A stretch of DNA of 20,036 nucleotides from a virus. Below are positions 3,120 to 20,036 of this stretch, in pieces (position 1 is the first letter of the stretch; each line of letters starts with the position of its first letter). A program made the translations under genes and the position numbers. Location: positions 1 to 20,036 of the IMG/VR virus record IMGVR_UViG_3300027805_001463; one strand, 5' to 3'. The notes beneath the pieces are model-generated. The model searched no databases and was not told where the DNA came from. It saw nothing but the letters and a program-made list of their open reading frames with translations.

Positions 3120-3360
3120 TGTTGTTTCCTTTTGTTTTGTTAATAAATTTATCTACAGATGCTATACCGAAGCAAGCAATAGTGAGTATTTTAAAAGAGT
3201 CAAATATGAACTCGTTAACCAACAGAGGCTTGTTCATAGCTCCTGTAACAATATCTGCAATAGCAAATATGGTCATCATGATGAAGGCAGCAAATCCAAT
3301 CACTGCTTTCTCGTTGATGGAATTCTCATCATTGAAGAGATCGTGGAAAAACTTTTTCAT
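3094..3360 (-). CDS. Putative holin
   Basis: 88 residues with two hydrophobic helices (about 18-38 and 50-70), a short charged N-terminus (MKKFFHDLFNDEN) and a hydrophilic, acidic C-terminal tail (NNNEQEGIES). Holins accumulate in the inner membrane and open it at a set time so the endolysin reaches the peptidoglycan. The start overlaps the endolysin stop by 4 nt and the downstream spanin-like gene begins inside it, a classic lysis cassette. Two-helix topology matches class II holins, though such small membrane proteins are called largely by context. Confidence 0.7.
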   Translation of the reverse strand: MKKFFHDLFNDENSINEKAVIGFAAFIMMTIFAIADIVTGAMNKPLLVNEFIFDSFKILTIACFGIASVDKFINKTKGNNNEQEGIES

Positions 3361-3956
3361 GCTAATAGATTATGATATTCTTTAAAATGTTTAATACGAT
3401 CAGCCAGACCAATTGTACCACCGTTTACACGCTTAGTCACCTCAGTAACTACAGCGTCTGTAGCACCCTTGTCAGCTATCTTGTGTAATCCATTTTTATG
3501 GAAAAACCATGCTGCAGAAAGGAGGGGATATTTGCTAGCCACCAAGTCTGGATTAGCTAGGATGTCCTCAGGAACCACAGCATCAAATGCTTTGTAGTTA
3601 TCCTTTCCTGTAAGCTGGATGTAACCTCTTCCACGGAACTTAAATCCTTCGCCAGAGGCTTCAGGACCATTGCCCATTCTTCCTCCATATACCAAATTGG
3701 CTATCTTTTCAGGCTTACGCTCGTATTCCTTAGCCTTGGCTTCTGTAGGGAAGTATTTCTTAAATATACCTAGAAGGCCTTTTGCCCCATAGTTCAGGTT
3801 CTCGGTTGTAGCCTTGAAACCACCACTCTCGTGCCCTGTTTGAGCCAGGAAGTGAGCTAGTCTTAAGGGTGTATTGAGCTCAAACTTCTGCATAGTGTCA
3901 GGAATCTGAGATATTACGCTGTCTGGGATGTGTCCTTTTAGTTTATCTAGGTTCAT
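3357..3956 (-). CDS. Endolysin, glycoside hydrolase family 19 (chitinase/lysozyme-like)
   Basis: 199 residues, almost wholly one GH19 catalytic domain. Visible hallmarks are the HESGGF motif with the likely catalytic acid Glu43, the second Glu52 in TENLNY, the RMGNG segment, and the substrate-groove motif RGRGYIQLTGKDNY (about 108-121). GH19 phage endolysins cut the glycan strands of peptidoglycan. There is no signal peptide or cell-wall-binding domain, so export depends on the holin. Length is typical for a single-domain phage GH19 enzyme. The gene overlaps its neighbours by 4 nt on each side (3953-3956 and 3357-3360). This is among the safest assignments in the window. Confidence 0.93.
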   Translation of the reverse strand: MNLDKLKGHIPDSVISQIPDTMQKFELNTPLRLAHFLAQTGHESGGFKATTENLNYGAKGLLGIFKKYFPTEAKAKEYERKPEKIANLVYGGRMGNGPEASGEGFKFRGRGYIQLTGKDNYKAFDAVVPEDILANPDLVASKYPLLSAAWFFHKNGLHKIADKGATDAVVTEVTKRVNGGTIGLADRIKHFKEYHNLLA

Positions 3957-4746: not shown

Positions 4747-7700
4747 ATGCCAAACAGTTACACATATTTTAAACCTGAAATAAAGCAGTGGATAATAGAT
4801 AATGTTCCTAACAGCAAACGCATCCTAGATGTAGGTCCTGGACAGGGTACATATTCTGACCTGCTTAGAGATCATGGCTACAGAATAGATGCTGTAGAAA
4901 TCTGGGCTCCTTACGTAGATCAATTCAATCTAAGATCTAAATATGACAATGTCTATATAGCAGACATACGTGAGTTCAACATAGAGGATTATGATTTCAT
5001 CATTTTGGGAGATGTCCTAGAACATCTGTCTACAGAGGATGCCAAGCGTCTAATAGACAAGATATTATTTTCAGAGATGGGGTGTCTTGTAGCTATTCCC
5101 TACATGATGCCTCAAGATGGGGCAGAATATGGAAATGAGCATGAAACTCACTTACAGCCAGACCTCACACCACAGGTGATGATGGATAGATATCCCAGTT
5201 TGGTAAAACTGTATGATAATCAGTGGTATGGCTATTACATAATGGAGGATAGCAAGTGGGAAAAGGCCTATGTACTCTATGCCACAGAAAGCTACAAGGA
5301 CACTGTACAAGCCTGTGTGGACAGCATTAAGATGGTGAGCAAGATTCCCATTATTGTCTATATGCTTAATTCAGATGTTGATATAAAGGGAGCTGTCACT
5401 ATCAAGTGGGAATGCAACGTTGACAATCCTAAACAGGACAAATACATCAATAGAGCTAGCAGTGATATATACAAGATACTTATACAGCGCCCAGCTATTG
5501 TAAAAGATGCGCTTAGATATGCTAAGACAGTGGCTTATGTAGACAGTGATAGCGTAGCCACTAAGTATATAGACACCATCTTTGACTACTTCCCAGAGAA
5601 GAATGCCTACCCCTATTTTGTAGAGGGTATATATGACTGGATGGTGCTGAACGGTAGGGGTGGAGCAATGTCTTACGATGACCTATCTACCACCCTAGAA
5701 CATCCAGCCTGTTACTTGTTCAAGGTGGATCAGTATTTTAGAACCACCTACAGACAGACAGGTTATTTTGTAGCTGGTCAGTGGTGTGAAAACTTTCTAG
5801 ATGAATGGGTGTGGATGTGTAACCATCCAGTCATCCTTAAGAACCCACAATATTACGCTCCCTATCACGAGGAGACTATAGCCAATGTGCTTCTGTGGAA
5901 GTGGAGGGTGAACAAGGGACTGCCCTATCTATATATAAACGGTTCACTAGATATGGTGAACAACGTAGAATTCACTGGTGAGAAAAGACAGGTTAGTCAT
6001 TTTGTAACCACTCCTGCAACAGAGGATAAACTACTGTTCTATCACGGAGAGAAAGATGCTGTCACCATGTACAGAATGATAGAGCGTCAAAAGAGGAACA
6101 TGAGAGTGTTGTTCTTAGCTCCACATCTATCTACAGGTGGGATGCCTGCCTTCCTCTTGAGAAGAATACAAGCTTTGCAGGCTCACACCAATGTAGAGAT
6201 ATATGTGGTGGAATACTCAAACCACAGCGATCATTATATTGTACAGAAGAATCAGATAAAGAATCTGGTGAAACACTTCTACACGCTGGGAGAGAATAAG
6301 CATGAGCTCATAGATATCATAAAGAACAACAATATTGATGTTGTACATATAGAGGAGATGGTAGAAGATGGTCATAACAACTGGCCAGAACCCCTAAGAG
6401 AAGCTTTGTATGCTCCTGATAGGACATGGAGGATGGTAGAAACCTGTCATAACATTGTGTTCAAGCCAGATTTGGAAAAGCGTTTTCATCCAGACAGCTA
6501 CATGTTCTGTACACCACATCACCTGAAGACATTTGCAAACATGCCTTCTCCTAAATATGTGGTGGAATATCCCATAGAAAAGAAGGATGCTGTAAAACTA
6601 GACCTAGGACCAGGAAAGCATGTACTGAATGTAGGACTGTGGACCCCTGGCAAGAACCAAGGAGAAGCTGTAGAGCTAGCTAGACAAATGCCAGATGTAC
6701 AGTTCCATTTTGTAGGGAATCAAGCAGGTAACTTCCAGCACTACTGGGAACCTCTAATGAAAGATGTTCCTTCTAATGTGCATGTGTGGGGAGAGCGTAA
6801 TGATGTAGGTAGTTTCATGAAGGGATGTGACCTCTTCCTTTTTAACAGCACATTTGAATGCAATCCTCTCGTGATTAGAGAGGCTATAGGATTTAGTAAG
6901 CCCATTATAGCTCGTAACCTTCCTCAGTATGGAGATATGTTTACCCAGTACATCACTGATTTAGATCCTAAAAAACTGAAGGAACAGGTGTATGAACAGC
7001 TGAAGAACCCAAAGACATATACTATTCCTGAGGACCAGGAGTTATTGTTTGCCCTATCCCATCTAGCCATATATCAGAAGGTAGTGAACGATCCACTACA
7101 GTCTGGAGAGCACATCACTATCACTCACACTTTTGTTCTAGAACCATTCCTTGAGATAAGAGGTAATTCCAAAAGTAGGTTCAGGGTGGAATATTACGAT
7201 GAGCAGGGCGTGTGTCACTACAGCAACACTATAGGTGTACAGAACTGGGTGAAGCTTAACAGAAGATGGTATACAAAATGGACCATCAAGATATGGAAGG
7301 ATGAAAAACCATATTACAACTATACACTAGACTATACAGGTAAGCGTGTCTATATAGCCTTTGATAGTAAATCCTTAGGAGACACGATAGCTTGGATGCC
7401 CTACGTGCTAGAGTTTAAGAAGAAACACAACTGTCATGTAATAGTGAGCACGTTCAAAAACTTCCTGTTCAAAGATGCCTACCCAGAGCTAGAATTTATT
7501 GAGCCTGGTCAAAAGGCTGATGATGTTCTTGGTATGTATACAATAGGTTGGTTCTACAATCCAGACAAGGAACCAGCTTTGTGTAATACAGTGAAGCTCC
7601 AAGAGGCAGCCACTAATATATTAGGTCTTGATTATCAAGAGATTAGACCTAGAATAGTTTTTACACCTGGTAACAATTTATATGGTAAATATGTTACCAT

Positions 7701-8172
7701 AGCCACCAACTCTACAGCAGGTTGTAAGTTCTGGACTAAAGAAGGATGGCAATCAGTGATTAACTTTCTGCATGAGAAAGGATATAAGGTGGTAAATGTG
7801 TCCAAAGAAAAGAATCCTTTTGACAACTGTGAGCAGATAGAGGATACATCCATGGAAAACACTATGAATGTCATCCATCATAGCCATCTATTTATAGGCC
7901 TATCTAGCGGGCTTAGTTGGTTGGCCTGGGCTATGGGCAAGAAGGTGGTAATGATATCCAACTTTACAGAAGCTGACCATGAGTTTACAGATAACTGTAT
8001 TAGAATTACTAATACAACTGTGTGTCACGGATGTTGGAACAAGGCTAAGAATAGATTTGATCCAGGAGATTGGGACTGGTGTCCAGAGCATAAGGGTACA
8101 GATAGACAGTGGGAGTGTCACACAAGCATATCATCCTTGCAGTTGATATTTAAACTTGTTTCTCTAGTGTAG
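4747..8172 (+). CDS. Four-domain fusion: methyltransferase, GT-A, GT4-like, and BAHT-type heptosyltransferase
   Basis: 1141 residues, no membrane segment. Residues about 1-165 are a class I SAM methyltransferase (ILDVGPGQG at 26-34, acidic E51, LGDVLEHL at 87-94). Residues about 172-420 are GT-A-like, with DSD at 266-268. Residues about 452-785 are GT-B/GT4-like (FLAPHLSTGG near 456, E704-x7-E712). Residues about 785-1141 match the Aah/TibC autotransporter O-heptosyltransferase family in my reading. They have a beta-rich lead-in, then SKSLGDTIAWMPYVLEF, GLSSGLSWLAWAMGKKVVMIS, and cysteines C1093, C1096, C1112 and C1124 in the pattern C-x2-C-x15-C-x11-C, which in that family bind iron. Known BAHTs transfer heptose from ADP-heptose to serines of repetitive autotransporter domains. 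The opposing operon supplies heptose-activation genes. It is the only plus-strand gene, with its own promoter, and its 3' end overlaps the epimerase gene by 23 nt. Domain borders are estimates. Confidence 0.85.
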   Translation: MPNSYTYFKPEIKQWIIDNVPNSKRILDVGPGQGTYSDLLRDHGYRIDAVEIWAPYVDQFNLRSKYDNVYIADIREFNIEDYDFIILGDVLEHLSTEDAKRLIDKILFSEMGCLVAIPYMMPQDGAEYGNEHETHLQPDLTPQVMMDRYPSLVKLYDNQWYGYYIMEDSKWEKAYVLYATESYKDTVQACVDSIKMVSKIPIIVYMLNSDVDIKGAVTIKWECNVDNPKQDKYINRASSDIYKILIQRPAIVKDALRYAKTVAYVDSDSVATKYIDTIFDYFPEKNAYPYFVEGIYDWMVLNGRGGAMSYDDLSTTLEHPACYLFKVDQYFRTTYRQTGYFVAGQWCENFLDEWVWMCNHPVILKNPQYYAPYHEETIANVLLWKWRVNKGLPYLYINGSLDMVNNVEFTGEKRQVSHFVTTPATEDKLLFYHGEKDAVTMYRMIERQKRNMRVLFLAPHLSTGGMPAFLLRRIQALQAHTNVEIYVVEYSNHSDHYIVQKNQIKNLVKHFYTLGENKHELIDIIKNNNIDVVHIEEMVEDGHNNWPEPLREALYAPDRTWRMVETCHNIVFKPDLEKRFHPDSYMFCTPHHLKTFANMPSPKYVVEYPIEKKDAVKLDLGPGKHVLNVGLWTPGKNQGEAVELARQMPDVQFHFVGNQAGNFQHYWEPLMKDVPSNVHVWGERNDVGSFMKGCDLFLFNSTFECNPLVIREAIGFSKPIIARNLPQYGDMFTQYITDLDPKKLKEQVYEQLKNPKTYTIPEDQELLFALSHLAIYQKVVNDPLQSGEHITITHTFVLEPFLEIRGNSKSRFRVEYYDEQGVCHYSNTIGVQNWVKLNRRWYTKWTIKIWKDEKPYYNYTLDYTGKRVYIAFDSKSLGDTIAWMPYVLEFKKKHNCHVIVSTFKNFLFKDAYPELEFIEPGQKADDVLGMYTIGWFYNPDKEPALCNTVKLQEAATNILGLDYQEIRPRIVFTPGNNLYGKYVTIATNSTAGCKFWTKEGWQSVINFLHEKGYKVVNVSKEKNPFDNCEQIEDTSMENTMNVIHHSHLFIGLSSGLSWLAWAMGKKVVMISNFTEADHEFTDNCIRITNTTVCHGCWNKAKNRFDPGDWDWCPEHKGTDRQWECHTSISSLQLIFKLVSLV

Positions 8173-8932
8173 TCCAATAAGCTTTTGCTGAAAGTAGTCC
8201 TTTACTCAAAGAGTATTGCGGTGCCCATCCAGGCATCCAGTCTTTTATATCACTACAGGTGTAAAATTGATACCCTTCTGGTATAGCTGAAACGTCATGG
8301 TAAGTGTAAGGAATTTCTAGTGTGTCTGCAATGTATTCAAAACCATGTGCAGCTCCAAGTCCCACGTCATATTTCTTTCCTAACAAATCACTATAGTGTG
8401 CTAATGCATGTAGATTAGCAGACACTACATCATCCACATATATAAAGTCACGTTTAGGGTCACCAGGAAATAGTTTAGCATTCCCAGCTTTAAACATTTG
8501 GTAGGCCATAGATGCCATTTTACCTTTGTGTTCCTCCCCTGGTCCATAAACATTAAAGTATCTAAGAGCTATACCTCCGTTACTAATCACATACTGCTCA
8601 GCTGTATATTTGCTCCAGCCATATAGATTAGATGGATATTCACCATTAGTTCCGTAAGAGGCTGCTGATGAAGAATAGACAAGAGGTTTATTATTAGCTT
8701 TACACCAGTCTGTCAATGTTTTTGTAGACTCAAAGTTGACAACCATGATGTAATTAACATCTGTTTCAAGGGTGTTAGAACAAGCTCCTACATGAAACAC
8801 AGCATCTGGATTGTGTTCATCTAACCACTCTGTAGTGACAAGTGCATCTTCATTAATCTCTAGTGGGTTATTGAAATAGCACTTTAGCTGACCAGCTATA
8901 AATCCTTTTGTTCCTGTAATTAATACTTTCAT
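8150..8932 (-). CDS. hldD: ADP-L-glycero-D-manno-heptose 6-epimerase-like SDR enzyme
   Basis: 260 residues of an extended short-chain dehydrogenase. The Rossmann start is TGTKGFIAG (6-14), with Ala where the third Gly usually stands, and the catalytic pair is Y104-x3-K108. HldD-specific phrases are present: HVGACSNTLETD (47-58), YSSSAASYG, LRYFNVYGP, HKGKMASMAYQM, and LFPGDPKRDFIYVDDVV. HldD converts ADP-D-glycero- to ADP-L-glycero-beta-D-manno-heptose, the last step of donor synthesis. It is about 50 residues shorter than the E. coli enzyme, with internal trimming rather than loss of motifs. It overlaps the kinase gene by 4 nt and is the last gene of the operon. A related nucleotide-sugar epimerase is the alternative, but the GACS...TE signature and the adjacent kinase and adenylyltransferase favour HldD. 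Confidence 0.85.
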   Translation of the reverse strand: MKVLITGTKGFIAGQLKCYFNNPLEINEDALVTTEWLDEHNPDAVFHVGACSNTLETDVNYIMVVNFESTKTLTDWCKANNKPLVYSSSAASYGTNGEYPSNLYGWSKYTAEQYVISNGGIALRYFNVYGPGEEHKGKMASMAYQMFKAGNAKLFPGDPKRDFIYVDDVVSANLHALAHYSDLLGKKYDVGLGAAHGFEYIADTLEIPYTYHDVSAIPEGYQFYTCSDIKDWMPGWAPQYSLSKGLLSAKAYWTTLEKQV

Positions 8933-9675
8933 GGTGTGCTTACGCCTCTTTTAGATACAACAATAGAGCTCATTTTATTAGCATAGTTAATAGCTACATC
9001 AATATCTTGTAGCTGTAAATACTTAATAGCAAAGGAAGCTAGAAATGTATCCCCAGCTCCTGAAACATCTATCGTTTCTTTGGGTTCTGTAGGATAGAGC
9101 ATACCCATATACTTAGCTCCTTTACCACCTAGTGTAGCAATTATTTTGAGCAGTAGATTCCTGTCGCTCGTATTGTTCTTTTCAAACTCTTCCTCATTAA
9201 GTTTTACAAACGTGTAGGCTAGAATAGTTTCAGGGGATAGTTTCTTTTTTGTGTCTAGGAAACTCTTTTTAGCTAGTGTGGCTATTTCATATAGTGTTTC
9301 CTCTGATAAAAAGCCCTTGTTATAGTCAGACACAAGAACAGCATCAGCCTGTCGAATAAGTTCTTTTCTTTGCTCTGTAAGTGCAAGAGGAGATATGTTT
9401 CCATACTCCCCCTCATCCACTCTTAGGAACATGTGATTGCTTCCTTTATCTACATATCTAGTCTTAATAATCACTTCAACTTGATGCATGCAATCTACAT
9501 CATAGTCTTCTGTAATAGCTCTTATGTTTCTTGCAACATTACCAGCCATCCCTTTTGATATCTGCCTATCTATAGGATTAAACACTGGGACAGGGGCCTC
9601 AGGACTGAGTCTTTTGCACTCTCCATAAATGAATACATCATAACAAAGCTCTCCTATCACTAATATCTTCTTCAT
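8929..9675 (-). CDS. hldA: D-glycero-beta-D-manno-heptose-7-phosphate kinase (HldE domain I / HldA type, PfkB family)
   Basis: 248 residues of PfkB/ribokinase fold. Near the N-terminus GELCYDVFIYGECKRLSPEAPVPVF (8-32) contains the RLSPEAPVPV phrase typical of the RfaE/HldE kinase domain. GMAGNVARNI (42-51) is the substrate-side motif, SDYNKGFLS (116-124) follows, and GAGDTF (206-211) supplies the anion hole and catalytic base D209. It phosphorylates heptose 7-phosphate at C1 to the 1,7-bisphosphate. It is shorter than the roughly 320-residue domain of E. coli HldE, but all motifs remain. In many bacteria the kinase and adenylyltransferase are fused. Here they are separate genes, as in HldA/HldC systems. 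The PfkB class points to the ADP-beta-heptose route, not the GDP-heptose route that uses a GHMP kinase. Confidence 0.85.
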   Translation of the reverse strand: MKKILVIGELCYDVFIYGECKRLSPEAPVPVFNPIDRQISKGMAGNVARNIRAITEDYDVDCMHQVEVIIKTRYVDKGSNHMFLRVDEGEYGNISPLALTEQRKELIRQADAVLVSDYNKGFLSEETLYEIATLAKKSFLDTKKKLSPETILAYTFVKLNEEEFEKNNTSDRNLLLKIIATLGGKGAKYMGMLYPTEPKETIDVSGAGDTFLASFAIKYLQLQDIDVAINYANKMSSIVVSKRGVSTP

Positions 9676-9974
9676 AGTTCTTCTATTCGTTTGGTCTTAT
9701 CACATATTAGGAGATCGTAAGAGGGTTTATGGTTCATTATAAGATGAGTGTATTTACAGTTCCAATCATGTAACTGTTTGATTGTTAACATTCTGTAATC
9801 ATGTCTAGACTGTTGACCTCTAGCGGTGTAATACACTATCTCATGACCTTCGTCATACAGCTTGTTTATCTTGGCTACATGTTCAGGAATTGGAATAGAG
9901 TTTTCATAATCAGATCCCTCTGTATGACAGATAGTGTTATCGATGTCTACATATATTTTTAGTTTCCCTTCCAT
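9672..9974 (-). CDS. Minimal HAD-superfamily phosphatase, candidate heptose-bisphosphatase
   Basis: 100 residues holding all four HAD motifs: DIDNT with nucleophile D10 and acid D12, Thr50 in YYTARG, Lys83 in NHKPSYD, and acidic D87/D92 at the end. There is no cap domain. Small HADs with the YYTARG phrase occur in sugar and capsule clusters. Lying directly between heptose kinase and adenylyltransferase functions, it is well placed to remove the 7-phosphate from heptose 1,7-bisphosphate (the GmhB step), but it is much shorter than GmhB (about 190 residues). Overlaps: 4 nt with the kinase gene, 16 nt with the cupin gene. Substrate is inferred from context only. Confidence 0.7.
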   Translation of the reverse strand: MEGKLKIYVDIDNTICHTEGSDYENSIPIPEHVAKINKLYDEGHEIVYYTARGQQSRHDYRMLTIKQLHDWNCKYTHLIMNHKPSYDLLICDKTKRIEEL

Positions 9975-10321
9975 ACGCGGTAGCTATCTGAGTCAAAATG
10001 TTGTGTTGATATTTCAAAGATTTCGCCATCCGTTATTGCCTCAAGTTGGTGAGGCATACCTATTGGTATAGTCACAACTTCTCCTTCATGCAAAAACTGA
10101 TTGTGTATTGTTCCTGTTTCTGTGTTAATCCAGTTAAACCTAAACTCCCCTTTGTTTACGTACCACGTTTCTTGTTTGATCATGTGGTAGTGCATGGAGA
10201 ACTTGCATCCCTTATTGAACACAAGTAGCTTGCCGCAGTAGTGTTCATTATTTACAATTATTAGCTCGTGTCCCCATCCTTTGGGAACAGTACAACATTC
10301 GCTACATATTGGTTTTAGCAT
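9959..10321 (-). CDS. Cupin-fold protein, sugar-phosphate isomerase/epimerase-like
   Basis: 120 residues forming a single cupin barrel. Candidate metal ligands are H44 and H46 (MHYHM), E51 (KQETW) and H91 (GMPHQLE). The KGWGHE opening (14-19) recalls the RPWG start of type II mannose-6-phosphate isomerase cupins. Such stand-alone cupins are frequent in nucleotide-sugar clusters. In a heptose pathway lacking a visible GmhA (sedoheptulose-7-phosphate isomerase), an isomerase role is tempting, but the folds are unrelated and nothing in the sequence proves it. It overlaps the adenylyltransferase gene by 7 nt and the HAD gene by 16 nt, so it is clearly embedded in the heptose block. Confidence 0.65.
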   Translation of the reverse strand: MLKPICSECCTVPKGWGHELIIVNNEHYCGKLLVFNKGCKFSMHYHMIKQETWYVNKGEFRFNWINTETGTIHNQFLHEGEVVTIPIGMPHQLEAITDGEIFEISTQHFDSDSYRVWKGN

Positions 10322-10695
10322 CTGTTAAGTATTTGTGTGGTTGAATGTGAAGTCCTGTCAAAGTAAACAATTTTCTTTATATATTCAGCTCCTACAATCC
10401 TTTTATTTTTATAGTCACTACCAATCACCATGATATCTGGTTGGTATTGTCTTATGCATTCTACAAGCTCTCCTTCTGAACCAAACCCAACCACCTCATC
10501 TACAAAGCGTAGGGATTCTAGGAATTCCTTACGTATGTTATAACTATTAAAGGGCCTTGTGGGGCCCTTCAATTCTTTTATCCTTTCGTCTGTATCTATC
10601 CCCACTCTCAAATGGCCCATGGCTGCCGCGTGCTTTAAGAGTCTGATGTGTCCTATATGAAGGACGTCAAAAGCTCCATTCACCCATATCCTCAT
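10315..10695 (-). CDS. hldC: D-glycero-beta-D-manno-heptose-1-phosphate adenylyltransferase (HldE domain II / HldC type)
   Basis: 126 residues, a single nucleotidyltransferase domain. The signature GAFDVLHIGHIRLLKHA (7-23) contains the HIGH motif at 13-16. ELKGPTRPFN (41-50) matches the RLKG.xRPxN loop of RfaE domain II. VIGSDYKNKRIVGAEY (90-105) and HSTTQIL (117-123) match the family's GGDYxPxxIxG and CSTTxII elements. It joins heptose 1-phosphate to AMP from ATP, giving ADP-D-glycero-beta-D-manno-heptose. It overlaps the FkbM gene by 4 nt and the cupin gene by 7 nt. Glycerol-3-phosphate cytidylyltransferase is a related alternative, but the kinase and epimerase neighbours decide for heptose. 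Confidence 0.87.
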   Translation of the reverse strand: MRIWVNGAFDVLHIGHIRLLKHAAAMGHLRVGIDTDERIKELKGPTRPFNSYNIRKEFLESLRFVDEVVGFGSEGELVECIRQYQPDIMVIGSDYKNKRIVGAEYIKKIVYFDRTSHSTTQILNRC

Positions 10696-11501
10696 TGTGG
10701 TATATAATTTATTGTGTCTAGCTTTTCGTTAGGTATACAGATATGGTCTAGTGATTTCCCACTGTAGGATTGATACTGTCGATCAGGATGTACTAGCTCC
10801 ACCTTATATCCCAATGCTTCAATCTTTTCTCTGAGCGTTTGATCTGTATATCCAAACTTCATAAGGTTGGGTTCTTCAAACTCTATAATCATGACAGGTC
10901 TGTGTTTTTCAATAGTCTTAACAGCACCATCTATAATCATAGGTTCATAGCCTTGTGTGTCCATTTTAATAAAAGACAGATTGTTAAACTCATAAGAGTC
11001 TAGTGTCCTGAGCCTGACAGATTCAGTGGGACGTGCAGTGGACTCATTCTTAATACCAACATCCCCAAAGTTTACATATCCTGTATCATGATAGTTAGGC
11101 ACCTCAATCTCTGTTACACCATCCTCAGCCCCAAGAGCTACGTTATAGCAATAGACATTGTCTAGCCCATTCATAAATATGTTTCCACAGAGCTGATAGT
11201 AGATAAGTCTTTGAGGTTCAAAGGCATGCACTCTTCCTGTATTACCAGCAAGTATACCAAAGTCCACTGTAAAGTTACCATTGTTAGCACCTATATCTAT
11301 AATATCTGTGCCCTCCACCTGTAGTTTATTTGTGCGAATGAAGTCAAATATATATTCCTCATACTGCCAACCCTTAATAATTGACTCGGTTACAGCATTA
11401 TCCTTTGGAAACAATGCAAACTTTAAAGAGTGTTTTAGGTTGTTCTTTAAATGGTCAGTTTTGGCTAGTCCATAAACATTAGTGTAGAATCTCTTTTTCA
11501 T
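10692..11501 (-). CDS. FkbM-family SAM-dependent methyltransferase
   Basis: 269 residues. The SAM-binding motif DIGANNGNFT lies at 69-78 with acidic E95 after VHAFEP, and the FkbM signature FIKMDTQGYEPMII is at 177-190. FkbM enzymes O-methylate sugars or small molecules. Many act on glycans of capsules, LPS or glycoproteins, and they are common in viruses carrying glycosyltransferases. The N-terminal 45 residues before the domain are basic. Within this operon the likely job is O-methylation of a sugar in the phage-directed glycan, but acceptor and position cannot be read. The start lies 2 nt after the sulfotransferase stop. Confidence 0.87.
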   Translation of the reverse strand: MKKRFYTNVYGLAKTDHLKNNLKHSLKFALFPKDNAVTESIIKGWQYEEYIFDFIRTNKLQVEGTDIIDIGANNGNFTVDFGILAGNTGRVHAFEPQRLIYYQLCGNIFMNGLDNVYCYNVALGAEDGVTEIEVPNYHDTGYVNFGDVGIKNESTARPTESVRLRTLDSYEFNNLSFIKMDTQGYEPMIIDGAVKTIEKHRPVMIIEFEEPNLMKFGYTDQTLREKIEALGYKVELVHPDRQYQSYSGKSLDHICIPNEKLDTINYIPQ

Positions 11502-11503
11502 AC

Positions 11504-12322
11504 TTACTTTTTATAGTTGAACTTGTCAAAGAACCACTTAAAGTTTTGATGTACCCAATCAGAAACATCTGCACCAAGCACCAGTCTAAAGTCATAGGGT
11601 TTTCGTTGCAGCTTAAAAGTACTACCTAGCTTTTGAGCAAGAAAGCCATTGTATATCTCATCATCTTCCTTAACCACCTTTGTAATGTTATCAAAGTCAT
11701 GTTTAAAGTGAGGGATCTCTAAGTATTGGTATATTCTGGTGAGCTCAGACTCTGGGTATAGGCACAGGTCCTCATACTTTACAAAGAGGATTTTATCATC
11801 ATATCCCTGTCTAACAATGTCATTTAGACTCTCTAGAGCTAGTCCAAGAGCAGGATTGGCCATCCATATATCAACACGTTTTGGAAGGCTGGTTCCCTTC
11901 ATCTCATCAGGAATCCTGATGCTATCTGTTCTAGCCTGGTTCTTTCTAAACTGCTTCTCCATGCTAGAGAACACCTCTCGTATGTCACGGATTATATAAA
12001 TGATCTTGGGATTGGGGTAGAATGTACTTACAAAGTCCCTATACATACCCCATTTCTTGTTCTTGTCTATGATGTACTTCTTATCCACATCCTTATAGAA
12101 GCCCTGTATGGCTGCCTCACAAAACCCTGTTAACTGGGAGGTGTTTGTGTTAGCATCCTGAAAGAAGAACTCAGGGAGCCTTAGCTTATCCTTGGCACCA
12201 TTGAGCATTTCTATAAGACCAGACACAGAGGAAACATGCATGTCTGGATTCTGAGCAAGGATGTTTAGTAGAGTGGTTGCGCCTGACCTAGGTAGGCTAC
12301 TTAAAAAGAATACGTTTTTCAT
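11504..12322 (-). CDS. PAPS-dependent sulfotransferase
   Basis: 272 residues. The 5'-phosphosulfate-binding loop is SSLPRSGATTLL (8-19). The 3'-phosphate-binding motif is IIRDIREVFSS (110-120), with Arg112 and Ser119 in the usual places. The RSG and RDxREV pattern with a P-loop-like start is characteristic of carbohydrate and protein sulfotransferases. It would move sulfate from PAPS to a hydroxyl, probably of a sugar, given that it sits between a glycosyltransferase and a methyltransferase in the same operon (gaps of 1 and 2 nt). No membrane anchor, unlike Golgi enzymes. Use of host PAPS is implied. The acceptor is unknown. Confidence 0.85.
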   Translation of the reverse strand: MKNVFFLSSLPRSGATTLLNILAQNPDMHVSSVSGLIEMLNGAKDKLRLPEFFFQDANTNTSQLTGFCEAAIQGFYKDVDKKYIIDKNKKWGMYRDFVSTFYPNPKIIYIIRDIREVFSSMEKQFRKNQARTDSIRIPDEMKGTSLPKRVDIWMANPALGLALESLNDIVRQGYDDKILFVKYEDLCLYPESELTRIYQYLEIPHFKHDFDNITKVVKEDDEIYNGFLAQKLGSTFKLQRKPYDFRLVLGADVSDWVHQNFKWFFDKFNYKK

Positions 12323-12323
12323 A

Positions 12324-13268
12324 TTAGTCTCCGATTATGTTGTTTCCTATTTTGATTGGGGGTGTAATTATCTTGTTAGAACAAGATGATGAAACATCTT
12401 CACCCTCTAGAGCCATGATAATCTTTTCAGTATCAAAGATTTCTCGCTCATCGTTATATGGAAACTCAAAAGGCTCTCCCCCAATATTGAACTTGGTTAG
12501 ATAGGCCTGTCGGATATCTGGTTTGTTGGTAAAAGGATTGGCCGTGATATTGGTATGCATGTCGTACCCAAACACTGTAGGGCTATTAGCTACCCACAAG
12601 ACAGTGGAAGGTAGGTTGGCGCTAGCACAAGCGTGCTGCATAAAGCTGTCTATTAAAAGCCTTTTTTCAGACAGCATAGCTAAGGCTGTAAGCTCTCTAA
12701 AAGAAGCTGTAGCCTTGGCTGTGTTATCATAGGCAGTCTGATCATCTCTTCTAATGTGGGCAATTAGATATCTGTCCTTATAGTGGTTGATGATATCTAT
12801 AGCAGTGCTAGAGGGCATGTCTCTAGCCCAAGAATACTTAAAGTTTTGATCCCCTCCCCCATTAGTCTGAAGGATCATAAGAGGTCTATCAAGGTTAAAG
12901 TTCTTATGGAAGTGTTCAATTTCCCTTTTTGTAAGGAAAATCTCAGGCATGTCTCCTTCATAAGGCAGGTCATACATCTCACACCAAGTCTTTATAAGGT
13001 GTTGATTCTGATGGAGAAAGCTTGTTTCTACATAAGGATCGTGCACCATTGCCATAACATCCTTGTCTTCTATATAGTCTTGATAGAAGTAGGAAAGTCC
13101 AGCAAATGAGAATGCCTTATCAACATAATAATTGTTGATAAAGAGCTCAGGATATCCAGAAACTACGATGAGGAAATCTTTGGGGTATTTTCTTTTGATA
13201 GCTTTGCAGACAGCACTTGCCATAACGCATTTGCCTGCACCCCCTTGGATAGAGAAGATGATATTCAT
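12324..13268 (-). CDS. GT9-like (heptosyltransferase-fold) glycosyltransferase
   Basis: 314 residues. The N-terminal glycine loop GGAGKCVMASAVCKAIKRKYP (9-29) resembles the GDxL.xxPxLxxLKxxYP opening of GT-B family 9. The C-terminal donor site region, residues about 199-236, has LLIDSFMQHACA then STVLWV and NSPTVFGYD, paralleling the iDSgxxHlAaAlgxPtvxlfG pattern of ADP-heptose transferases. This would be a second heptose-type transferase beside the BAHT domain of the plus-strand fusion, perhaps extending the glycan. It is the first gene after the promoter at 13316-13285, with a leader of roughly 10-13 nt and no Shine-Dalgarno. The resemblance to GT9 is partial, so the donor sugar is uncertain. 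Confidence 0.7.
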   Translation of the reverse strand: MNIIFSIQGGAGKCVMASAVCKAIKRKYPKDFLIVVSGYPELFINNYYVDKAFSFAGLSYFYQDYIEDKDVMAMVHDPYVETSFLHQNQHLIKTWCEMYDLPYEGDMPEIFLTKREIEHFHKNFNLDRPLMILQTNGGGDQNFKYSWARDMPSSTAIDIINHYKDRYLIAHIRRDDQTAYDNTAKATASFRELTALAMLSEKRLLIDSFMQHACASANLPSTVLWVANSPTVFGYDMHTNITANPFTNKPDIRQAYLTKFNIGGEPFEFPYNDEREIFDTEKIIMALEGEDVSSSCSNKIITPPIKIGNNIIGD

Positions 13269-13358: not shown

Positions 13359-16300
13359 TTAGTTCACACATACCGTATTACCTCGTGCTATCAGGGTGGT
13401 TCGGGCTGTTATACCTGCAGCTGATGGGGTGGATGACCCACCTGTTATACACACCGTTCTTCCACAGAAAGGTATGGTACCATTAGTTCCATCCAGACAG
13501 GCTAGTCTAATAAGGATGTCATCTACAGAGCTTTGACACAAGCAGGCAGATGTAATTATTATATTCCCTAAACATGCTCCCACTTGCTTCAAGCCTGTTC
13601 CCAGGGTGATGCAACACAAAGCACCTGTACCGCATACAAGGTTTATGATAGGCTGAGCTGCAGTGACACCATATCCCAAACGCTCAATACTACTCATGTT
13701 TATACAAACCAGACTTGCCATACAACAAAGGTTAAGAGCAAAACACGTAGGAGATGCTATTACAGAAGACAAATTTAAACAGGTTAGAGCCCCTAAACAT
13801 GTTAGAGCTATACCTGTGGTTGCATTTGAGATTCCATACACTTGTAAATTACCAAGACACAGAGTTGTTAGTGAGTTTGCGTTGGTAACGCATATTCCAG
13901 CATTAGTGCTCACCAATGCAGGAAAATTAAGAGTTGTTAATGCTGGAGCAGTGGCAACACATACACCATTCGCAAATTGAAGAACTGGGAAACAAGCAGA
14001 TGTAAGTCCGTTTAAGGTGCAAAGATTTACATTAAGAGCTAATGAATCTGTATTTGGTAAACAAATAGATGTGAGACAGGGTAAGTTACATATAGTTAAA
14101 CCCGAAGCATTATTCAAACAAGGAAGACTTATGCAGTTTAGAAGAGCATTGTTTGCAATACAAACATCAAATCCAACAACGTTCAGCGCAGGAGCACTAA
14201 GACAAGTTAAACATGGATAGTTTTCTACACGAAAAGTACATCCTACAGTAGTCAAACAAGGTAGGCTAATGGCTGGGAGAAGAGCTCCGCAATTTAATGT
14301 AAAATTTTCATTTACATATCTCAAAACTGGAACGCAAAGCTGTGTCATACAGTTTTGACATACTACAGCGAAAGTTGATGCTCCACTACCTCCAGCATTA
14401 CCTCCTGCAACACATTGTAACAATGGAAAGCACACTTGACAGTTTCCAATTGAATTTATAGCAAGGCCAGCGCCTATAAAAACACGTCCTGCATGCACTA
14501 AACATGGCACCACTAAACAAGGTATACATTGAGCTCCTATTTCAAAAACTGGTGTGCGGCATAGTTTAGGAATGCAAAGTTGACATATTGCATTACATCC
14601 TAAAAGAAATTTTCCTGCATCAACTAGTTCTGGAAGACACAAGTTTCTTATACCAGTAGAAGATGCATCTATATTAAAATCACCAAGTATACATGACACA
14701 CATGGGAGACAGAGATTAACAATACAACTCGCAAAAGAGAAACAAAAATTACCTCCAATTGTTCTAAGTTCAGGGAAGCACGTAGTGGTGAGACAGTTTA
14801 ATGGAGTAGCATACGATATGCTTCCGCCAACATATTGTAAACAGGGAACGTTTAAACAAGAGAGGTTTGGTAGATTGATTAAATTTATACCATCATTAAC
14901 ATAGCACAAAGAAGGAAGATTAATACAGGTGTGCACTGTTGCTCCTCCACTAAAACTTAAATTACCAGCAAATCTTAAACAAGGAAGATCTATTGTTGCT
15001 GTACATATATTGTTTGCACAAAAAGTTCCATTAACACATACCAAACAAGGTAGTGATAAACAAGTTATACCGCCATTTGGATTAAGACATGTTCCTCCCA
15101 CATAAGACAAAACAGGGGCACAAACTATATTTAGACAAGAAGTGTTAGTATCAAAAACTCCAAAAACTTTTTGTAACTTTGGTAACGTAATGTCTCTTAA
15201 ACAATTTGAGTTAGTAGTAACTTGGAAGTTACAATATACATTAGTCAAGCAAGGAAGACATATAGATCTCAATCTACACATACTAGTTAAAACGACGCAA
15301 CCACCAACTGTTTCTAACACAGGGAAACATTCTGTGTCCATGATGGCTAAATTGCTCATGATAAGATTGCCTCCTACATAACTTAAACATGGTACGTTGA
15401 TATCTACTAATACTTGGTTACTAGCTGCACAAAAAATTCCCTGTACGCATTGTAAAGCTGGTAAATTAATACAAGCATTCTGGCTACTACCCATAACAGA
15501 CAGGTCAACACATCCGGCAAAGACCAATTTAGGATAACTGACACAATACACATTAGGATTAAATCCTGTATTAAGAACACCTCTTACACAAGTGATACAA
15601 GGAATTGTGAATTGTCTTACATTATTACTTGGGCAGACGGCAAATCCACTATGTGCATACTCCAGGTTCGGAATATTAAGACAACTTACAGATTGCCCTC
15701 CTAAGTTAACACTTCCCATTACACACTGTAAACATGGAAGACTCAAACATCTTGCTATAGTGAGGGCGCCTATAGTCAGGTTTCCACTAACAAAGTTTAA
15801 GTTTGGAAAACAGTGGTTTATTACTCTTGAATTACTAACAGTCAGACCTGCAAAATTTGATATCCTAGTTAAACAAGGAAAACATACATCTGTGGTAGGA
15901 GCGTTCGAGGATATAGATACACTAAAAAGAGAACCTCCTATACACTCCAGTTGTGGAAAACAAATTATAGGAAAACAAGTGCTAGAAATACAAAACCCAT
16001 TTGTGAATCTCAAACAAGGCATGTTGAGTGCCATACCAGAGGTGGTATTGAATACTACCAATCCACTTGTTCTAAGATTGACTAGTGATGGAAAATCCCA
16101 AGCTCCACTAAAGCAACCAGCGTTCGCACCGTTTATACAAAGACCACCTGCTGTAGTTAAACATGGAACATTAAATCTTTTGAAAAGTGTACTACCTACA
16201 GAAACAACACCTACAGTTCCAGTGGTGCACACTAAACAAGGATAGCTTACAGTGTTTGGATTACTACCACAGAGGTTTAGTCCAGCATCTCCAACACATC

Positions 16301-19300
16301 TTAAAGATGGGAAGTTATAACATGAATTACTACAAAAACTGTTAATGACAAGTCCTTGCGTCATCTGCAGGCATGGAAAGTCAACGTATGTTCTAGTACT
16401 TGAGGTTGCACAAATTTGCATACAACCAAATGACTCACAGATGTTTGAACATACACCTGGTAAGGAAAGGCTATTAGTACCAATCACGAATGTAGCAGCT
16501 GTAAGACATGGTAAGTTTAGACATATATTTGGAGAACAAGGGAGTATGGTATTGGCCCTTGTAAGTAGTGGTGCATTTATACAATAAGCACCACAAGCCG
16601 CAAGACAACCTTCAATTACGGTTAGAGCAGGTAAAGATACTATATCAGTAGGAGCAGTTACAGAAGTTTGTACGTCAAGGTTTTCTCCAATATAACTAAC
16701 ACATGGAAAACAAAAAGAGGAACTAGTACCGATCGTAAGCCTAGATCCCACCTCACGTAAAGAGGATAAGCAAATATCTTTTACACCAATAGTACTGAGC
16801 GAAAGACATCCTCTCACATTACAAAGTGCAGGTAATGAAATACATCTTGCAGAAGGAATGAATGCTATAAAGTTGCCATCCACTGTAGTTAAACAGGGTA
16901 GGCTAAGACATGTTGCGGTGAAGGTGCAGAAACAGAAGTTTCTACAAATTGTTGTTAGAACAGGAGCACACAGTTCTTCCAATGTACTGGCAACACTTCC
17001 ACCACTACTAGCTCCAAATGAACCTCCTGCTTCAACTAGACAAGGGAAACATACTGATCTAATTCTACTACAAGATGATGTAAGGATTGGTAATTCAGCG
17101 GAAGCTATAAATGTTGTAAGAGCTGGAAAACACAAAACAGGTTGTAATACAAAATTAAGATTAAGAGCATTTATAGAACTTATTGTTTGTAAACATGGAA
17201 AGCTAATGCAATCAATGGCTGAACAAACATTAATATTTACTCCAGACCCTAGGCCACATTGGGGTATATTTATCTCAGTTAATCTAGGAAAATCAAGACA
17301 TGTAAGAAATGATGTACAAAAAAAGTTAAAACTGCTTGTGATTGCTGTCACACAAGGAGTTGTAAATGTTGATAGAAAAGGTGAGGCAATTTCTAAACAT
17401 CCAAGCGTTGTAACATTTGGTAAACAAATAGTTGAAAGACATTGTAAAGAACACAGAAAAAAAGTACATCCCGTTGTAATTCCAAATCTTGTGAATCTAC
17501 TAAAGTCTATACATTTTGTTCCTGTAATATTCAATGCAAAGTTACCAACTTTTGTTAAGCATGGTATATGAACACAATTAATGCTTCTAATTGGTCCTGA
17601 TCGAGTACAAGCGACACATTGTCTACCTATGGAAAATTGACCCCCTATCTCTTCTAGAACAGGAAAACAGAAACAAGATGAAATAGTAGAAAAGGTATTA
17701 GTATCATACATTGCCATCTCTCCACCAACACAACGTAGACAAGGAAGACAGCTTCCATTAGCAAGGGCTCCATTTCCTTCAAATATAAGTCCTGATTGTA
17801 CGCTTACTAAACAAGGAAGTGATGGAGATTTTGAACTTTTTAAGTAGAGACTTCTTGTTACAGCAGATAGCTTAGGAAAACTAAAACAACAAGGTGATGA
17901 TATTTGACAAGTATAGCTTCCTAACTGTATAGTGTTAGCAATTTCAAGATTGGGAACACATAAATTTGTAATGGGAGATTGACTTAAAATTATTGGAGCA
18001 ACTGCAGCTGTTAAACAGGGTAGGCAAATAGAACACAATAAAGGTGTCTGAAGTCCTGTTACTGAAATAGTGCTTGTAAGATATTGTAGATTGGTAAAAC
18101 ATACCTCTCTTAAATCTGGATAGTAGGTGCAGTCAGCAGTGGTATAATAGTTAATATTGCAAGTGTGAAAACAACTTGATCCTAGTTCAAAACATCCACC
18201 AAACACCTTTGCTGTACAACTAGCAAGAGAACAATTGTTCTGTGCATAACTAGCACCACTTACAGTTAATCCTCCAATAGGACTGGCTGAACCAGATATT
18301 GAATAGGAAAGAGGAGCCACTGCTGCCCCTGGATAGTTAACAAGTTTACCATTTACATCTGAACAAACTGGGTTTCCACAGGTGAGTGTGGCTACAAAGA
18401 CATCATTGCAAGAGCAAAGATTATTAGCATAGAATGTACAAGCATTACATGCATTGATGTTACATCCCACTGCTGTAGAGAAAGGAGCTGTTGCACAGCT
18501 ACCACAACCATTTATAACAGATGAAAAACAACCAGTGGCACAGTTAGATGTACCATTTATAACAGATGAAGAAGACCCAGAAGCTATGTTTTGAGTTCCT
18601 GTTCCAATTAAAGAGTAGGCTCCACAAGCTGTATTACCTTTACCACCACCTATAAATGAACAAGCACTGGTGGCTAAGTTACCAGAACCACCACCTATAC
18701 TAGTATCAAGTAGAGCATCCGCAGCAACTCCACAAACGGCATTAGCAGCACCGCCTAATATAGAGGATCCAGATGCACAGGCAGTGTTATTAGAGCCTAT
18801 TGCAAAAGAGCAATCGCCTAGTGTAATATTACTTACACCACATCTTACAGAAGAGCATGGACCACCACCTAAAATAATAACTGCGCTAGAACCTACATTT
18901 ATACCTGAGGTACCTGCTGTCCCTGAAGAACCTGAAGAACCTGATGACCCAGAAGAACCAGAGGTTCCAGAAGTCCCACTTGTAGCTGATGTTCCAGACG
19001 TACCAGTGGTTCCTGAAGATCCACTAGATCCACTTGTACCAGAAGAACCTGATGTACCCGTAGTACCAGAAGACCCGCTACTACCGCTTGTACCAGAGGT
19101 TCCAGAAGTTCCTCCACTACCATCAGTGCCTGAAGACCCTGATGTTCCAGAAGATCCTGAAGACCCACTAGTTCCACTACTTCCTGCTGTTCCTGAGGTA
19201 CCTGTAGTACCCGAGGTGCCTGTTGTACCACTAGTACCGCTACTTCCTCCTGAGCCATCAGTACCGCTTGTGCCTGATGATCCAGATGATCCACTGGTGC

Positions 19301-20036
19301 CAGAGGTGCCCGTAGTACCAGATGTACCAGACGTTCCTGTGGTACCTGAGGTGCCACTAGTTCCGTCTGTGCCTGATGTACCACTGGTTCCCGTTGTTCC
19401 AGAGGTTCCTGTTGTTCCAGAAGTACCAGAGGTGCCTGTGGTTCCAGAGGTACCCGATGTACCATCTGAGCCACTAGTTCCGCTGGTTCCGCTGGTTCCA
19501 GAAGGAGGGGTGAATGTGGTTTGTGCGTAGGAATAGTTACTTGTTCCTTCTGTATAGAATGTAATGTTTTGGTTTCCAGCTCCTGTATGCTCAGCATAGA
19601 TTTGACAATAAAGCCTATCAGTGGCAAGAACTGCTGTCTGGGGAAGGAAAAGATCTGTGAAAAACTCTTTAATAACATTAGTAGACAGTGACTCAGTGTC
19701 AATGTTGGTGGTTCCTAAAAGTACCACGCTTCCACCTGTGGAGTCACATTTGTAAAGCTCCACATCCACTTTTAAACTAACGTTGGCATCTATTGAGAAG
19801 TGGTTCACCCAAGCCCAAAGTCCTGAAGGTAAACTTGTTACTCCTGGTTGATTTGAGTCAGTGGCAAATGTAGCAATTAGTGTTCTAGTGCTACCAGCAA
19901 CATTTGTTATCACTGTTTGTTCTGGACCACCTGTAGGTGTACCAGACCATTGCTTATATGTAGGAGTGCCTATTGCACTACTAGTATTTAATGATTGGTT
20001 TAGGTAGTATACAAGTCCTCCAGATACACCATTAAC
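13359..20036 (-). CDS. Giant cysteine-rich repeat fibre/adhesin (N-terminus beyond the window)
   Basis: At least 2225 residues. A GTG at 19913 is not the true start, because the frame stays open through 41 more codons to the right edge. Order by position: beta-rich domain (20036-19505), proline-free collagen-like G-x-y stalk (19505-18900), YadA-head-like left-handed beta-roll repeats (about 18890-18400; SFAIGSNNT, SFIGGGKGNTA), linker, about 60 leucine-rich-like repeats (about 18130-13640; consensus near C-x-x-LPCLxxVxG, 22-26 residues), and a C-terminal domain (SSVDDILIRL...SAAGITARTTLIARGNTV). Cysteine occupies fixed repeat positions, including about 25 PCL motifs, and is roughly one residue in eight to ten in dense stretches. 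The stalk has none. No signal peptide is visible, but the N-terminus is missing. The architecture suits a trimeric virion fibre that binds the host. It is a plausible substrate for the BAHT-type enzyme encoded nearby. Confidence 0.85.
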   Translation of the reverse strand, partial: VNGVSGGLVYYLNQSLNTSSAIGTPTYKQWSGTPTGGPEQTVITNVAGSTRTLIATFATDSNQPGVTSLPSGLWAWVNHFSIDANVSLKVDVELYKCDSTGGSVVLLGTTNIDTESLSTNVIKEFFTDLFLPQTAVLATDRLYCQIYAEHTGAGNQNITFYTEGTSNYSYAQTTFTPPSGTSGTSGTSGSDGTSGTSGTTGTSGTSGTTGTSGTTGTSGTSGTDGTSGTSGTTGTSGTSGTTGTSGTSGSSGSSGTSGTDGSGGSSGTSGTTGTSGTTGTSGTAGSSGTSGSSGSSGTSGSSGTDGSGGTSGTSGTSGSSGSSGTTGTSGSSGTSGSSGSSGTTGTSGTSATSGTSGTSGSSGSSGSSGSSGTAGTSGINVGSSAVIILGGGPCSSVRCGVSNITLGDCSFAIGSNNTACASGSSILGGAANAVCGVAADALLDTSIGGGSGNLATSACSFIGGGKGNTACGAYSLIGTGTQNIASGSSSSVINGTSNCATGCFSSVINGCGSCATAPFSTAVGCNINACNACTFYANNLCSCNDVFVATLTCGNPVCSDVNGKLVNYPGAAVAPLSYSISGSASPIGGLTVSGASYAQNNCSLASCTAKVFGGCFELGSSCFHTCNINYYTTADCTYYPDLREVCFTNLQYLTSTISVTGLQTPLLCSICLPCLTAAVAPIILSQSPITNLCVPNLEIANTIQLGSYTCQISSPCCFSFPKLSAVTRSLYLKSSKSPSLPCLVSVQSGLIFEGNGALANGSCLPCLRCVGGEMAMYDTNTFSTISSCFCFPVLEEIGGQFSIGRQCVACTRSGPIRSINCVHIPCLTKVGNFALNITGTKCIDFSRFTRFGITTGCTFFLCSLQCLSTICLPNVTTLGCLEIASPFLSTFTTPCVTAITSSFNFFCTSFLTCLDFPRLTEINIPQCGLGSGVNINVCSAIDCISFPCLQTISSINALNLNFVLQPVLCFPALTTFIASAELPILTSSCSRIRSVCFPCLVEAGGSFGASSGGSVASTLEELCAPVLTTICRNFCFCTFTATCLSLPCLTTVDGNFIAFIPSARCISLPALCNVRGCLSLSTIGVKDICLSSLREVGSRLTIGTSSSFCFPCVSYIGENLDVQTSVTAPTDIVSLPALTVIEGCLAACGAYCINAPLLTRANTILPCSPNICLNLPCLTAATFVIGTNSLSLPGVCSNICESFGCMQICATSSTRTYVDFPCLQMTQGLVINSFCSNSCYNFPSLRCVGDAGLNLCGSNPNTVSYPCLVCTTGTVGVVSVGSTLFKRFNVPCLTTAGGLCINGANAGCFSGAWDFPSLVNLRTSGLVVFNTTSGMALNMPCLRFTNGFCISSTCFPIICFPQLECIGGSLFSVSISSNAPTTDVCFPCLTRISNFAGLTVSNSRVINHCFPNLNFVSGNLTIGALTIARCLSLPCLQCVMGSVNLGGQSVSCLNIPNLEYAHSGFAVCPSNNVRQFTIPCITCVRGVLNTGFNPNVYCVSYPKLVFAGCVDLSVMGSSQNACINLPALQCVQGIFCAASNQVLVDINVPCLSYVGGNLIMSNLAIMDTECFPVLETVGGCVVLTSMCRLRSICLPCLTNVYCNFQVTTNSNCLRDITLPKLQKVFGVFDTNTSCLNIVCAPVLSYVGGTCLNPNGGITCLSLPCLVCVNGTFCANNICTATIDLPCLRFAGNLSFSGGATVHTCINLPSLCYVNDGINLINLPNLSCLNVPCLQYVGGSISYATPLNCLTTTCFPELRTIGGNFCFSFASCIVNLCLPCVSCILGDFNIDASSTGIRNLCLPELVDAGKFLLGCNAICQLCIPKLCRTPVFEIGAQCIPCLVVPCLVHAGRVFIGAGLAINSIGNCQVCFPLLQCVAGGNAGGSGASTFAVVCQNCMTQLCVPVLRYVNENFTLNCGALLPAISLPCLTTVGCTFRVENYPCLTCLSAPALNVVGFDVCIANNALLNCISLPCLNNASGLTICNLPCLTSICLPNTDSLALNVNLCTLNGLTSACFPVLQFANGVCVATAPALTTLNFPALVSTNAGICVTNANSLTTLCLGNLQVYGISNATTGIALTCLGALTCLNLSSVIASPTCFALNLCCMASLVCINMSSIERLGYGVTAAQPIINLVCGTGALCCITLGTGLKQVGACLGNIIITSACLCQSSVDDILIRLACLDGTNGTIPFCGRTVCITGGSSTPSAAGITARTTLIARGNTVCVN
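13640..18130 (-). repeat. Solenoid repeat block of the fibre (about 60 units)
   Basis: Protein-level tandem repeats of 22-26 residues built round a (hydrophobic)-P-x-L-x-x-(V/I) core. The x is often Cys (LPCL, VPCL, FPCL) and otherwise N, V, A, K, E or S. Cys-bearing and Cys-free units often alternate, suggesting a two-unit period. The DNA repeats are diverged, with a loosely recurring AAACAAGGAAG on the plus strand where LPCL is encoded. The pattern resembles receptor-L-domain or BspA-like leucine-rich repeats of Bacteroidota and their phages. Confidence 0.75.
18900..19505 (-). repeat. Collagen-like G-x-y repeat tract
   Basis: About 200 residues in which Gly recurs every third position (GTS, GSS, GTT, GTD, GSG), with Thr/Ser filling nearly all other places. 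No proline and no cysteine. Codons for Gly, Thr and Ser vary between units, so nucleotide identity is much lower than protein identity. Predicted trimeric stalk. The dense hydroxyls could be glycosylation sites. Confidence 0.85.

Follow-up and report, generated by a model that had tools for sequence, protein, structure and literature searches.

The question raised here is why a phage fibre that is assembled in the cytoplasm carries a high density of cysteine (Cys), and whether the genes around it can account for this. The fibre belongs to the window, by which we mean the whole stretch of 20,036 nucleotides analysed (IMG/VR virus record IMGVR_UViG_3300027805_001463, positions 1 to 20,036), and is encoded by an open reading frame (ORF) at 13359..20036 on the minus strand, which runs past the contig edge at its 5' end and gives a fibre/adhesin of at least 2225 amino acids (aa). 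Overall, the results show that Cys in the repeats is restricted to positions predicted to be exposed, and that fibres with such repeats are associated with a gene for a GT9-fold glycosyltransferase (GT), which in the window lies directly downstream of the fibre. The best explanation, which we hold to be just on the probable side, is a fibre glycosylation module with the exposed Cys as S-linked acceptors.

Cysteine in the head and solenoid

In the fibre, all coordinates being on the minus strand, a collagen-like stalk of GTSGTSG repeats (aa 176-378, 18903..19511), which matches Pfam Collagen with 82.8 bits against a cut-off of 27.2, is followed by a YadA-like beta-roll head region (aa 379-590, 18267..18902) and a Cys-rich beta-solenoid (aa 591-2225, 13362..18266) made up of roughly 58 coils, each about 23 aa long. 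PHROG tail-fibre families are matched by the N-terminal part and the stalk, and the head, whose sequence repeats are recognised by pattern, has a weak phmmer match to UspA1 (3pr7, E=0.0012). The proportion of Cys is 1.1% in the N-terminal part, zero in the stalk, 8.8% in the head and 10.2% (167/1636) in the solenoid, and in the window's remaining 16 listed ORFs it is 0-4.2%; these per-domain counts bear out the preliminary description, which had the Cys bias limited to head and solenoid and the stalk free of it.

When the 58 coils are aligned by hand on their conserved proline, Cys is present at position -4 in 38%, at -2 in 38%, at +1 in 47%, at +3 in 7% and at +4 in 17% of them, and at -3, -1, +2 and +5 in none. 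Solenoid Cys is confined to predicted outward positions and absent from the core. The predicted structure of aa 1380-1640 is all beta (pLDDT 78.9), and a strand spans roughly -5 to -2 in its first coil, which in the model would agree with Cys on alternate, outward positions. Foldseek with this model returned nothing below E 0.001, and the best rows of VIA-align for the solenoid are generic beta-helix and leucine-rich repeat chains. Relatives of the fibre are scarce: the phage collection has none at E 1e-5 and a single weak record at E 0.02, and viral_contigs scanned with the fibre itself gave no relative. The solenoid pattern LPCLTxVGG is found at 6 loci, in none of which is it coded in the frames examined, and its Cys-free version at 42 loci, all with too few repeats.

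The heads can be compared across many phages. The fibre set was collected with the motif CSFIGGG and the control motif YSFIGGG, heads being validated by at least 5 repeats, and positions were counted with few fixed anchors in the repeat regular expression. Among 1337 unique head repeats from IMG/VR loci in which a Cys-rich fibre is accompanied by the GT, positions 7, 8, 10 and 12-15 of the 15-mer carry 4-13.5% Cys, and at positions 1-4 and 11 it does not exceed 0.1%; Cys-rich heads with no GT seen in the stretch show an identical positional pattern. The reverse is seen in Cys-poor heads, with 0-0.4% Cys at exposed positions, 1.1% at position 1 and 2.2% at position 4. Exposed serine (Ser) is about level in the Cys-rich and Cys-poor classes (15.6% and 15.1%), as is threonine (Thr; 11.3% and 12.7%), which indicates that Cys has been added at exposed sites and not swapped for Ser. 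The earlier suggestion that Cys replaces Ser holds only in part: no single residue makes way for Cys in the Cys-rich heads, the decrease being shared chiefly among Q, N, Y, E, A, T and G, and exposed Ser and Thr are not depleted. Cys-rich fibres are in fact common among phages carrying this GT, the CSFIGGG motif by itself being present in 119 or more viral-contig stretches, and the remark that so high a Cys content would be very unusual for a viral adhesin proves wrong for these phages.

The spacing of the Cys bears on two alternatives that had been put forward, a disulfide ladder and metal binding. The first states that the fibre Cys form disulfides, as an inter-coil ladder or as cross-links, once out of the cytoplasm. 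Disulfide ladders are present in some antifreeze solenoids, and Cys is dense on the solenoid here. A ladder should appear as an excess of stacked Cys, yet the heads are neutral, with 187 same-position pairs in adjacent coils against 203 ± 9.5 expected (about 209 against 201 in a larger set), and the window's solenoid avoids both +1/+1 pairs in adjacent coils (3 against 10.2 expected, p<=0.001) and Cys at -4 together with -2 in one coil (1 against 8.3 expected). Its +1 Cys also has a lag-2 excess, a two-coil period not seen for non-Cys residues, and within head repeats the pairs (8,10), (12,15) and (13,15) are avoided. This mutual avoidance argues against a disulfide ladder and a metal cluster alike. 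Disulfides would moreover leave the linked GT and sulfotransferase without a role, and we consider them very unlikely. Binding of a metal, for example iron, by exposed Cys on the fibre surface would require many exposed thiols, as are present here; the Cys nevertheless keep apart from one another on a given face, where a coordination site would need them together, and no linked metal gene is prominent in the ORF-family enrichment given below, which makes this alternative extremely improbable. Such spacing would be produced by a bulky modification, or else by selection that keeps disulfides from forming by accident.

The adjacent glycosyltransferase and its association with Cys-rich fibres

The GT gene is located at 12324..13268 on the minus strand. 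Its AlphaFold model (pLDDT 89.8), compared by Foldseek and VIA, has the GT9 fold, with Z scores of 22.9 for 3tov (268 residues), 20.6 for WaaF, 19.6 for WaaC and 19.3 for TibC. Pfam Glyco_transf_9 leaves the window GT unmatched, and matches 19 of 49 family members at E<=0.1, with 3.3e-5 as the best.

On the whole, of the IMG/VR fibres whose heads contain 2% Cys or more, 91 of 130 are accompanied by the GT, against 1 of 51 where the heads contain less than 1% (Fisher 7e-19), counted per locus, with a few loci sharing a contig. When the comparison is confined to loci that came in first through the Cys-blind scan, the numbers are 16 of 28 Cys-rich against 1 of 51 Cys-poor. The first two pattern scans gave 44 loci with the GT, nearly all via CSFIGGG, a motif uninformative about the GT. 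An unsupervised comparison of ORF families between 119 Cys-rich and 69 Cys-poor loci, the latter including proteins with a single chance motif, ranks the GT as the most enriched family (54 against 0, p=6e-14), followed by a sulfotransferase (43/119 against 1/69) and an APS kinase-like family (26 against 0). In addition, a fibre-like ORF is found no more than 200 nt from the GT in 34 out of 88 distinct loci, and in 27 of the 34 it lies upstream on the same strand.

The pairing is also seen beyond this group of phages. A scan of genome_contigs gives 42 loci, most of them titled as Bacteroidota metagenome-assembled genomes (MAGs) and several on contigs of at least 80 kb. The gene order in three MAG contigs read gene by gene is Cys-rich fibre, second repeat protein, GT and sulfotransferase, and one of the three has homologues of sulfate activation genes too (names by eye); on the Bacteroidota MAG contigs L327, L326 and L342, a Cys-rich beta-roll ORF, an NHL-like repeat protein (by eye), the GT and the sulfotransferase are consecutive. 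The fibre/GT module thus recurs on Bacteroidota MAG contigs, a putative chromosomal placement resting on gene content, as MAG contigs can hold phage DNA. Ten Bacteroidota genomes gave two exact matches to CSFIGGG, exact patterns being too insensitive there. In the Pelagibacter phages HTVC111P and HTVC112P, a distant GT (24%) adjoins a fibre in which Cys makes up 1.5-1.9% of residues; the neighbouring tail protein has 0.2-0.4%. Two pelagiphage records have an annotated RTX/lysine acyltransferase adjoining tail genes (L294, 6231-6638; L295, 6003-6389).

These distributions bear on a further alternative, in which Cys richness is an effect of lineage or composition and the GT is merely a passenger in the same phages. 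SU10-like families do mark the Cys-poor loci. A 94-aa ORF family (L282:1357-1638 and relatives), present in 31 of the 69 Cys-poor loci and in no Cys-rich one, is a lineage marker. However, Cys keeps strictly to certain positions, which argues against mutational bias too, and the stalk and the other ORFs are not rich in it. Records that are Cys-rich with the GT and Cys-poor without it share capsid clades in a gp23 comparison (12 sequences, forks poorly resolved), and the same pairing recurs on MAG contigs of Bacteroidota and, in weak form, in pelagiphages. We regard a pure lineage effect as improbable.

A TibC/Aah-type domain, candidate donor genes and the proposed module

The window has a second candidate enzyme. 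The ORF at 4747-8172 on the plus strand (1141 aa) fuses methyltransferase-like, GT1-like and TibC/Aah-type heptosyltransferase domains, the last forming its C end (7162..8172). This domain belongs to TIGR04414, with 270 bits against a curated cut-off of 200, and its iron finger is intact: CHGCWNKAKNRFDPGDWDWCPEHKGTDRQWEC fits CX2CX15CX11C (CHGCW...CPEH...WEC), the spacing of TibC, in which the iron-finger Cys are residues 339, 342, 358 and 370 (PMC4358343). TIGR04414 is matched in 12 of 20 Cys-rich records with the GT, 0 of 8 Cys-rich records without it and 0 of 7 Cys-poor records.

Judged by sequence likeness, most enzymes of the ADP-heptose pathway also have homologues in the window, all on the minus strand. 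These are an HldD-like ADP-glyceromanno-heptose 6-epimerase, N-terminally short (8150..8932; TIGR02197 1.2e-48, below the curated cut-off; PDB 1eq2 1.8e-29), a shortened RfaE/HldE domain I-like heptose kinase (8929..9675; TIGR02198 2.6e-37, below the curated cut-off; PfkB), a HAD-type sugar phosphatase as candidate for the GmhB role (9672..9974; EcbF-BcbF 3.6e-7, weak) and an RfaE/HldE domain II-like nucleotidyltransferase as candidate for the ADP-heptose step (10315..10695; TIGR02199 4.7e-28, below the curated cut-off), which also matches a glycerol-3-phosphate cytidylyltransferase model at 1.7e-21. With the HldE, HldD and HAD homologues at 8150-10695, an ADP-heptose donor is plausible.

Between these genes and the GT lies the sulfotransferase (Sulfotransfer_3; 11504..12322, minus strand; Pfam 7.4e-19), with a weak likeness to protein-tyrosine sulfotransferase (PDB TPST1, 1.4e-5). 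Its homologues are found in 41 of 130 Cys-rich and 0 of 51 Cys-poor head loci; of the GT loci, 69 of 89 from phages and 15 of 42 from bacterial contigs have one no more than 6 kb away from the GT. Further genes on the same strand are an FkbM methyltransferase, a candidate for glycan methylation (10692..11501; Pfam 6e-20), and a cupin resembling a sugar isomerase (9959..10321; Pfam Cupin_1 3.5e-8).

Taken together, the idea of S-linked glycosylation, which the preliminary description had offered among others, gains support from the GT association, the GT9 fold, the TibC/Aah-type enzyme with its heptose genes and the exposed-only Cys, and from these we infer the chemistry. The head and solenoid of the tail-fibre-like adhesin would be the probable substrate of a phage-encoded glycosylation module, with outward Cys side chains, rather than Ser, Thr or asparagine, most likely accepting S-linked sugars in the host cytoplasm during assembly. 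Transfer would be made by the adjacent GT9-fold GT, perhaps with the TibC/Aah-type heptosyltransferase, from a donor that is probably ADP-heptose made in part by the phage HldE/HldD homologues, and the sulfotransferase may afterwards sulfate the glycan. Candidate roles are a charged or sugar coat, receptor binding and shielding.

Several points weigh against this explanation. The heptose pathway homologues fall short of the curated cut-offs, and two of them are shortened. The GT is missing, in the DNA searched, from 39 of the 130 Cys-rich fibres, 8 of these being in records of at least 60 kb of unknown completeness. As the Cys-poor loci are in large part from SU10-like phages, lineage partly confounds the association, and the gp23 tree in which the Cys-rich and Cys-poor classes mix is limited to its 12 sequences and poorly resolved forks. 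Avoidance between Cys is also expected from selection against accidental disulfides. Finally, all characterised TibC-type acceptors are Ser (PMC4358343), and exposed Ser and Thr, abundant in both head classes, are undepleted, which makes O-linkage possible. The main rival accordingly has the module O-glycosylating the fibre on Ser/Thr like TibC/Aah, the exposed Cys serving otherwise or marking a lineage habit; it offers no reason for the GT to follow Cys content when the two classes differ little in exposed Ser and Thr, and we consider it unlikely.

The surroundings of Cys-rich fibres without the GT contain ORFs with GT2-like, HtrL_YibB and phytanoyl-dioxygenase matches. A phrog_4417 protein of the window (58-1074, minus strand) has a homologue directly downstream of such a fibre (L097:10517-11563); by eye, this homologue has a DSD stretch, possibly the metal motif of a GT-A enzyme. 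The window further encodes, on the minus strand, a second, short collagen-like tail-fibre-like protein (1252-2037; 261 aa, 0.8% Cys) and a GH19 chitinase-type endolysin (phrog_181; 3357-3956).

Meaning and comparison with known systems

The wider proposal, that a module widespread in phages and Bacteroidota uses a GT9-fold enzyme to add sugars via Cys sulfur at many exposed beta-roll and beta-solenoid sites, followed by sulfation, seems to us slightly short of an even chance. If it is true, many phages and some Bacteroidota coat their adhesin fibres with multiple S-linked sugars, which would explain a Cys pattern otherwise puzzling in cytoplasmically assembled fibres, assign a function to a GT family whose member in the window has no Pfam name, and make phage fibre glycosylation testable with two co-expressed genes. 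S-linked sugars have so far been described mainly for small bacteriocins, and multi-site attachment through Cys would be new; no report of this fibre/GT module was found within the limited set of literature searched. Many enzymes cannot readily break sugar-sulfur bonds, and for this reason the GT could also serve as a tool.

Among known systems, TibC/Aah with TibA/AIDA-I (PMC4358343) resembles the present one in that a GT9-fold enzyme is genetically linked to a repetitive beta-solenoid adhesin, and the window itself encodes a TIGR04414 domain that bears the iron-finger motif, as well as homologues of ADP-heptose pathway enzymes. In contrast, the known acceptor is Ser and the substrate a secreted autotransporter instead of a phage fibre, and the enzyme that tracks Cys here is a separate, smaller GT9-fold family. 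In the glycocins sublancin and pallidocin (PMC6405829), a dedicated enzyme encoded beside its substrate puts a sugar on Cys sulfur, as we infer for this module. The glycocin substrate is, however, a small bacteriocin peptide with specific single sites, whereas a fibre of at least 2225 aa offers many candidate acceptors. SunS belongs to a different GT family. Mycobacteriophages likewise glycosylate virion proteins with phage-encoded enzymes (Freeman et al. 2023, as cited in PMC12619734), but as far as the account there goes the glycans sit on the C-terminal ends of capsid and tail tube subunits and Cys-rich repeats are not reported. A leucine-rich surface protein of Bacteroidota type (713-aa ORF of L354) shares SLxFPKLxxVG coils with the solenoid (blastp E=3e-10, low-complexity filter off), yet has 1.3% Cys, the window Cys being aligned to mixed S, T, I, D, N and K and to gaps. 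The L354 record (MT835494.1) is named a bacteriophage, yet has Bacteroidota-like lipoprotein ORFs and a TonB-type receptor (by eye) and may be bacterial DNA. Lastly, YadA-type trimeric adhesin heads have the same 15-residue beta-roll repeats with terminal Gly-Gly, and the present group differs from them in carrying Cys at exposed positions, as Cys-poor phage heads do not.

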